Source: a virus
Reading direction: 5' to 3' (one strand)
Length of the DNA: 52,076 nt
IMG/VR virus record: IMGVR_UViG_3300025120_000078
Location: 1-52,076 of that record
The translations under genes were made by a program, and so were the position numbers. Positions within the stretch are counted from its first letter, which is position 1. Each line of letters opens with the position of its first letter. This document shows, piece by piece, positions 44,504-46,053 of this stretch. Below the pieces are notes generated by a model, which saw only the letters and a program-made list of their open reading frames with translations, had not been told where the DNA came from and did no database searches.

Positions 44504-45247
44504 TTACAAAGTCTGCCTATGTATGTATGTATGTATGTCTTCAGTTGCTTCATTACTAAAATATTTTTGATACACTTCTACTGCTTGCTCAACCTTCTCC
44601 TGGCCTCCTTGTATAAAACTTTGAGAACATTCAAATATACCAAGTCTTGCAGTCCTTTTATCTATTACCAGGAATATTAATGGCTTGCCAAATAACCTTT
44701 GGTATATGTATGCTTGACTATCGTAATTATAAGTTTTAGCACTATACATAAATTTATCGATATCAGAACTTGTTTTGATGTCAATAATCAAATTACTTTT
44801 ATGGTTTAAGATATCAGCCTTTCCTTTCCAATCTAAATTCATTATTTTTTGAATTTCTGGAACTTCGTAATCATTATTTTCTTCATAAATAAGATCAAAC
44901 ATTTCCATATTAGAAGTCATCTTAGTACATAAAAAATCTAATTGCTCCCTCTCTTTTGTAAGCAAAAGCATTTCCTCATTTGATTCAGCCAAAGCCTCTT
45001 TATATTTAGTAGTGGATCTTGTTGATGCATCTACTTCCTGGAAGTCTCCTATTTTATGTGGCTCTAATATTTTAGTGTGAAAATATCTACCTTCAAGCAT
45101 TGGCTTTGTAAATTCATTACTTACTCTAAACTGAGTAGGGTTTTTTAACAGCTTTCCTATGTCTGAGTTTGATAAATATTGCTTACCAAAATCTCCATAG
45201 TATTTAGCATCATCTTCCAGGTTTTTAAGTATATCTGTTTTAGTCAT
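44504..45247 (-). CDS. PD-(D/E)xK exonuclease (YqaJ/RecE-like)
   Basis: 247 residues. Motifs: GRYFHTKILEP (53-63), WKGKADI (140-146) with D145, IIDIKTS (154-160) with D156 and K158, and YDSQAYIYQ (175-183) with the conserved Gln. This is the 5'-3' exonuclease layout of phage recombination modules; it resects double-stranded ends for the Sak3-like annealing protein encoded upstream. The last residues (EDIHTYIHRQTL) are encoded by a five-copy tetranucleotide repeat, so the natural C-terminus may vary. Confidence 0.85.
   Translation of the reverse strand: MTKTDILKNLEDDAKYYGDFGKQYLSNSDIGKLLKNPTQFRVSNEFTKPMLEGRYFHTKILEPHKIGDFQEVDASTRSTTKYKEALAESNEEMLLLTKEREQLDFLCTKMTSNMEMFDLIYEENNDYEVPEIQKIMNLDWKGKADILNHKSNLIIDIKTSSDIDKFMYSAKTYNYDSQAYIYQRLFGKPLIFLVIDKRTARLGIFECSQSFIQGGQEKVEQAVEVYQKYFSNEATEDIHTYIHRQTL
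44518..44538 (-). repeat. Tetranucleotide repeat (TATG)5 in the exonuclease 3' end
   Basis: Five perfect TATG units plus a T on the + strand (CATA units on the coding strand) inside the last codons of the exonuclease gene. The unit is not a multiple of three. Loss of one unit would read from ...EDIHTYI into GRLCKSLKR... and end at 44362, giving about 293 residues; gain of one unit gives an early TAG. Confidence 0.85.
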
Positions 45248-45261
45248 CTTTTATTTAATTA

Positions 45262-45420
45262 AATTACCTCAATAGAGGGGCGTCTTTCCGACCTGTCAGT
45301 CTTGTTGTAATTTAGCGAGTCATTTATGTTACTCAGTTGTTAGTACACCTCTCGCTTTTGACACAAGCATTACAACGGCCAACATTAGCGACAACTAAGG
45401 CAATAAAACTGTGTACCAAC
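45262..45420 (-). ncRNA. Candidate structured RNA between annealing protein and exonuclease genes
   Basis: The 185-bp gap has no ORF above 18 codons but several complementary segments. On the minus strand: gttggtacac (45420-45411) with gtgtactaac (45348-45339), 10 bp including one G-U; gttgtaat (45376-45369) with attacaac (45311-45304), 8 bp; agcgag (45356-45351) with ctcgct (45319-45314), 6 bp; cttagttgt (45399-45391) with acaactgag (45340-45332), 9 bp including one G-U. The G-U pairs become mismatches on the + strand, so minus is the likely RNA. The helices interleave (pseudoknot or alternative states). The GC content is higher than the flanks. It could be a leader regulator, an independent small RNA or a transferred host repeat. 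Confidence 0.5.
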
Positions 45421-45432
45421 AATAATTTTTTA

Positions 45433-46053
45433 TTAGTTATCTTTCATAGATTTAGCTAATTCTTTTTTCACTACTGCCTTTATACTATACTTAGACTTAA
45501 GATTTTTTACTATCTTCTCTAAGCCTAATTCTTTATTTTTAGATATGTACGTTAAAACTTTAGACCAATTCATATCTCCAATCTCTAATGTGATTAAAGT
45601 TTCAGTCTTTTGTTTTGTTGTGGTCTGTGTCTTTTTATGTTCCTGGATCTCTGGAATTATTAGAGTATCTTCATTTGCGTAAAGACTTAAACCAAGGCCA
45701 TGCATAGCAATAGCTTTTGCAGTTGCTCTTTGAATTGCAGTGTTAACGTCCATAGAAGTTATTTTGTCAACAGTGATAGAGTTATGCCTAAAGTCTTTAA
45801 TAGGTAAATAATCAATATGCTCTATGTCATTTACCACTATACCTACTTTTACATAGCCAGTCATTCCATCAGAAAACCAATTTAAACCTGTCTCTTGCGC
45901 CTCATATACTATACGTTGCGCTCCTGGGCTTGATTGTTTTAAATAATTCCAGGCTATTGCCCAGGATAAGTAATTAAAGTTTCCTTTCTTTTTTACGTGC
46001 TTGGAAATATCTTTTGCAACCAAGTCTTTGAAGTAATTTTCATTTTTGCTCAT
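45433..46053 (-). CDS. Sak3-type ssDNA-annealing recombinase (DUF1071)
   Basis: 206 residues. The N-terminal domain has FNYLSWAIAWNYLKQ (26-40), EHIDYLPIKDF and the strongly conserved NTAIQRATAKAIAMHGLGL (104-122), the hallmark of DUF1071/Sak3 annealing proteins. These form rings on single-stranded DNA and anneal ends resected by a partner exonuclease; that partner is the next gene, across the candidate RNA. The C-terminal part (about 140-206) is Lys-rich and helical, probably a partner-binding or DNA-binding tail. Confidence 0.85.
   Translation of the reverse strand: MSKNENYFKDLVAKDISKHVKKKGNFNYLSWAIAWNYLKQSSPGAQRIVYEAQETGLNWFSDGMTGYVKVGIVVNDIEHIDYLPIKDFRHNSITVDKITSMDVNTAIQRATAKAIAMHGLGLSLYANEDTLIIPEIQEHKKTQTTTKQKTETLITLEIGDMNWSKVLTYISKNKELGLEKIVKNLKSKYSIKAVVKKELAKSMKDN

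Follow-up and report, generated by a model that had tools for sequence, protein, structure and literature searches.

In the IMG/VR virus record analysed here over its whole length of 52,076 bases (hereafter, the window), two recombination genes on the minus strand are separated by a gap at positions 45248-45432, and the question raised by this locus is what the gap specifies and what its product does. The gene upstream encodes a Sak-like single-strand annealing protein (45433..46053, minus strand; PHROG 659, E=6e-43; PF06378, E=1e-26), and the gene downstream encodes an exonuclease VIII/PDDEXK-like protein (44504..45247, minus strand; PHROG 412, E=1e-27; PF12684, E=1.5e-17). A first-pass annotation had read positions 45262-45420 as a structured minus-strand RNA, pseudoknotted or switching between alternative helices, which might tune the ratio of exonuclease to annealing protein, act in trans, or represent a mobile repeat of the host. 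Its description of the gap stands: the longest ATG-started open reading frame there has 18 codons, the G+C content of 45262-45420 is raised (41.5%, compared with 31.0% and 29.6% for the kilobases on either side), and all four complementary segment pairs that it listed are present on the minus strand.

An uncatalogued RNA family

A blastn search with the gap matched 36 nt of Flavobacterium phage FL-1 that lie between annotated features, and comparison of the two by eye showed that the long helix is still paired despite an entirely different sequence. A gapped pattern search of viral contigs returned 38 stretches, 37 of them real and one (L020) a chance match; Bacillus phage Troll and contig L009, both hit by blast, were likewise chance matches. 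With further patterns the family grew to more than 60 phage contigs, in addition to FL-1 and five Flavobacteriales genomes. Another candidate, L100 (26.7 bits), lacks key motifs and is left out of this count. Covariance model R1 found exactly one copy in each record searched, and model R2 (126.3 bits) matched the window at 45277-45427 on the minus strand. The true extent of the RNA in the window is approximately 45267-45422, close to the interval first proposed.

Rfam 15 models found nothing over the RNA in the window, FL-1, L044 or any other member tested, and permissive scans of five members gave weak chance matches only, none at the gathering threshold. No description was found in the literature on structured phage RNAs in Bacteroidetes, within a coverage lying mostly outside subscription journals. 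The RNA is a previously uncatalogued family, with nothing matching it in Rfam 15, and we rate it as a new family inside a known kind, the structured noncoding RNAs of phages.

Fold and strand of the RNA

Folded alone, the window sequence gives a minimum-free-energy z-score of -0.80, and a helix of at least 12 bp also arises in 19 of 200 shuffles, so that structure in the single sequence is not above chance. The decisive evidence for a structured RNA is instead covariation in 49 distinct homologues. The covariation score of these members is 0.492, compared with 0.155 +/- 0.012 for shuffled alignments, and it falls to 0.146 or less once the pairing partners are displaced by 1-3 columns. Standard pairs fill 92.3% of the cells of the 20 modelled pairs (73.6% when shuffled) and 14 of the 20 tested pairs show changes on both sides, although the 49-member alignment was fitted to the model and these pair counts therefore lean towards it. 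For this reason, a test independent of the model was added for two helices, A and D. The best-helix score was 20.8 for helix A, against 11.4 +/- 0.6 with strands exchanged between members, and 12.5 for helix D, against 8.9 +/- 0.4 (0 of 20,000 permutations in both cases), in permutations that take no account of relatedness among members. Restricting the test to mutually non-complementary representatives gave 0 of 20,000 permutations for helix A and 22 of 20,000 for helix D.

Across the family the elements follow one another in the order A5, hairpin B, C5, D5, A3, a variable hairpin E, D3, C3, the linker AAGACUGAC and hairpin F. In the window, where all coordinates refer to the minus strand, the whole structured RNA, comprising the pseudoknot core and hairpins F and G, is placed at 45267..45422 from the helix coordinates and the homologues. 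The 5' strand of helix A, or pseudoknot stem 1 (UUGUUGGUACAC, 45411..45422), pairs with the 3' strand GUGUACUAACAA (45337..45348), giving 12 bp when the originally noted 10 bp are extended; its sequence differs freely between lineages while pairing is retained. Hairpin B (45379..45400), with a UUAG/CUAA stem and a UUGUCG loop (45389-45394), lies in pseudoknot loop 1; its stem is paired in 100% of the 49 sequences, with both-side changes in three of four pairs. Helix C joins GUUGUAAU (45369..45376) to AUUACAAC (45304..45311) by 8 bp. Covariation supports this helix, with 98.7% of its cells paired and both-side changes in three of eight pairs, the inner five pairs being partly fixed by the search patterns. 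The 6 bp of helix D join AGCGAG (45351..45356) to CUCGCU (45314..45319), with support from both covariation and permutation and both-side changes in all five tested pairs.

The 3' strand of helix A follows D5 almost directly, with a spacing of 0-2 nt in all but a few members, an arrangement typical of H-type pseudoknots with coaxial stacking. Helix A crosses helices C and D family-wide, and the strand order S1-5', S2-5', S1-3', S2-3' of such pseudoknots is kept by compensatory change between helix A and the C-D helix. These compensatory mutations across the family show the predicted fold to be an H-type pseudoknot, in which three helices of the first-pass annotation, those of 10 bp (A), 8 bp (C) and 6 bp (D), are all conserved.

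On the 3' side, the near-invariant linker AAGACUGAC (45295..45303), defined by invariant columns of alignment A2, leads into hairpin F (45279..45293), which has a conserved loop, GGAAAGAC, and a covarying stem. In other lineages hairpin F is followed by a U-tract or abutted by a tRNA; in the window's own lineage it has no U-tract. An accessory hairpin G (CCUCUAUUGAGG, 45267..45278) is present in part of the family only, with stem variants CCUC/GAGG, UACC/GGUA and UCCC/GGGA among members. The GAC of the linker could plausibly pair with the GUC of the hairpin B loop, a contact too invariant for covariation; the divergent member L099 retains GUCU/AGAC.

The family also bears on the strand of the RNA. 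In the window, helix A and the 9-bp helix of the first-pass annotation each include one G-U pair, which makes both weaker on the plus strand. Among the tested pair columns of the 49 homologues, 64 cells hold G-U and 9 hold A-C, and the RNA is therefore assigned to the minus strand, which is that of the operon, as had been proposed.

Genomic context and possible roles

The nearest upstream gene is on the strand of the RNA in 43 of 44 cases and the nearest downstream gene in 40 of 42. These neighbours fall in many unrelated clusters, and the downstream genes are without evident common function. Even within related modules the RNA shifts its place, lying before gene cluster c0 in contig L011 and after it in L016. 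A recurrent module of many members combines a C-5 cytosine methylase (PF00145) and a GP88-family protein (PF17338) near the RNA, for example in L016, L028 and L037. Another contig with this RNA (L094:11420-11817; IMG/VR, 75.7 kb) carries tRNAs and a permuted tmRNA (RF04321, 63.7 bits), which is unusual for a phage.

Phage MW202828.1 (L105), which is related to the window phage through its recombination genes, has homologous annealing-protein and exonuclease genes that overlap by one base, and no copy of the RNA was detected anywhere in its record. This phage also has annotated groEL and chaperonin 10 genes. Because the genes downstream of the RNA are unrelated between phages and this relative has the gene pair without the RNA, it is unlikely that the RNA tunes the ratio of exonuclease to annealing protein. 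A more specific form of the same idea is a conformational switch that sets this ratio by exchanging helix A for the 9-bp helix, whose 5' strand CUUAGUUGU (45391..45399) pairs with ACAACUGAG (45332-45340), so that the two helices share bases 45337-45340 in the window. The 9-bp helix was found only in the window, L005, L007, L018 and L035, with pairing elsewhere at about the level of shuffles, and this confinement to the window's clade rules it out as a feature of the family. Since its 5' strand is occupied outside that clade by the covarying hairpin B, the proposed switch is not supported, and with the gene pair of MW202828.1 also speaking against it we consider it very improbable.

Evidence at the 3' end of the RNA bears on whether it is released from the operon transcript. 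A terminator-like hairpin, either F or the next one, is present in 16 of 54 members (0.38 expected); terminators are absent in most members and the U-tract is not conserved. In L033, L092 and L093, the modelled RNA is followed after 1-3 nt by the start of a tRNA gene, and in L027 a terminator is present with no gene directly behind the RNA. Immediately upstream of the phage copies, no Bacteroidetes -33/-7 promoter could be found. A promoter and a terminator of the RNA's own occur together in L085, L097/L101 and L027 have the terminator, and most phage copies show neither.

Confident bacterial copies were found in five genomes, one in each (Paenimyroides viscosum, G001; G114; G980; G1032; G1139), in sets of 345-397 Flavobacteriales genomes. 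By inspection rather than by profile, the G114 copy lies among helicase-like, methylase-like, excisionase-like and integrase-like proteins, and those of G980 and G1032 lie among phage-like genes. In two Flavobacteriales genomes, listed as L102 and L103, inspection places the RNA inside phage-like gene blocks, and its neighbour in L103 is a gene that resembles a DNA polymerase sliding clamp. The neighbours of the P. viscosum and G1139 copies look like ordinary chromosomal genes. The former copy (L085) has a promoter-like site and hairpin F followed by six U, with no gene directly behind it, and the latter (L101) is followed by its own terminator. This distribution, with one copy per record and few Flavobacteriales genomes containing any, speaks against the proposed mobile repeat of the host; a REP-like repeat, expected in many host copies, was likewise rejected.

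The P. viscosum copy is flanked by 78-nt direct repeats (97%) that are 329 nt apart (L085:10810-11216), which suggests a small insertion or a tandem duplication. These repeats, together with the location of the family in recombination and replication gene blocks, are what might be expected of a DNA element such as an origin, a recombination site or an attachment site, whose complementarity would not be read as RNA. The excess of G-U over A-C on the RNA's strand already disfavours this explanation, the orientation is nearly always that of the operon, and we find it scarcely credible.

Of the three roles first suggested, action in trans remains the best. We give roughly an even chance to the reading that the gap encodes a noncoding RNA in its own right, about 150 nt long and most likely trans-acting after release following hairpin F and binding a partner. 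A discrete, probably trans-acting RNA is favoured because of the terminators after the RNA, the tRNA genes abutting its 3' end and the stand-alone chromosomal copies. The RNA would be transcribed as part of the early or recombination operon and would fold with helix A crossing the C-D helix and abutting D. Loop 1 would contain hairpin B, hairpin E would separate A3 from D3, and the 3' side would be closed by hairpin F. Termination or processing just past hairpin F would then release it from the polycistronic transcript, and the near-invariant segments UUGUCG, AAGACUGAC and GGAAAGAC would serve to bind a partner that is itself conserved, from either the host or the phage. Its persistence among unrelated genes and shifting place in related modules count for a discrete noncoding RNA, as do the gene pair of MW202828.1 without the RNA, the single copy per phage record and the excess of terminator-like hairpins. 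Counting against it are the missing promoter-like site just upstream of phage copies and, for release, the hairpin F without a U-tract in the window's lineage.

The main rival is an intercistronic leader acting in cis, in which the pseudoknot in the mRNA would control either how the next gene is translated or whether transcription continues beyond hairpin F, perhaps on binding a ligand or protein. It better explains why, in about 28 of 38 distinct members, GGAAAG and the next start codon are 35-38 nt apart though the genes differ, and it agrees with the same-strand neighbours and with the terminator-like hairpin F directly ahead of promoterless genes in several lineages. Against such a leader, the downstream genes have no evident shared function, conservation does not extend to the U-tract, a search upstream for an antiterminator complementary to the 5' arm of hairpin F gave nothing above shuffles, and L027 and L085 have no gene directly behind the RNA, a tRNA taking that place in other copies. 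We regard action in cis as a real possibility, though not a probable one. A riboswitch working by attenuation was rejected on the missing antiterminator and the many unrelated downstream gene clusters.

Extending the preferred reading of a discrete RNA acting in trans, we tentatively propose, with rather less than even confidence, that these small phage RNAs form a new trans-acting class, which is mobile between phage operons, occurs twice in bacterial chromosomes outside evident phage genes, and has a pseudoknotted core that binds a host component (e.g., RNA polymerase, the ribosome, a nuclease or a defence protein) during infection.

Comparison with known systems

With these data, a well-supported RNA family whose pseudoknot is demonstrated by covariation becomes known from the phages of Flavobacteria and their relatives. 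Retention of the RNA while its neighbours change points away from the control of any single gene and towards a general role during infection, and FL-1 provides a cultured representative in which expression and function are directly testable. Phage T4 stable RNAs C and D, small phage RNAs of unknown function that are transcribed with tRNAs, offer a parallel in general character and belong to a different host group. The put antiterminator RNA of HK022, a pair of hairpins near a promoter, is comparable as a folded, early-operon phage RNA with a possible bearing on terminators, whereas the RNA described here is a mid-operon pseudoknot and most members lack terminators.

Small ribozymes usually have fewer near-invariant positions than this RNA family, and no Rfam ribozyme model matches it. 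A ribozyme cutting the operon transcript, whether self-cleaving or processing, would account for a pseudoknot with a conserved core and freely varying helices in phage operons with tRNA neighbours. Such a context resembles that of the theta (HDV-like) ribozymes, pseudoknotted RNAs of gut phages, including phages of Bacteroidota, that lie next to tRNAs and have been attributed to processing of tRNA 3' trailers (PMC10879173). Theta ribozymes form an HDV-like nested double pseudoknot, whereas here the strand order differs and only three contigs have the RNA on the 5' side of a tRNA. The HDV-like order (P1, P2, P3 hairpin, P1', P4, P2') was rejected on the position of hairpin B between A5 and C5, on D5 running into A3 without a hairpin, and on the lack of an Rfam match. 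We consider a ribozyme unlikely.

GOLLD and ROOL are structured noncoding RNAs of phages and prophages, of unknown function and often near tRNA genes (PMC12286853). They share with this family the character of a structured phage RNA and the occurrence of tRNA neighbours, and differ from it in their other folds and much larger size (many GOLLD RNAs exceed 800 nt). Membership in either was rejected, as no Rfam match was found and the model length here is 147, compared with several hundred nucleotides. In genomic context, the family resembles GOLLD and ROOL more closely and theta ribozymes less so.
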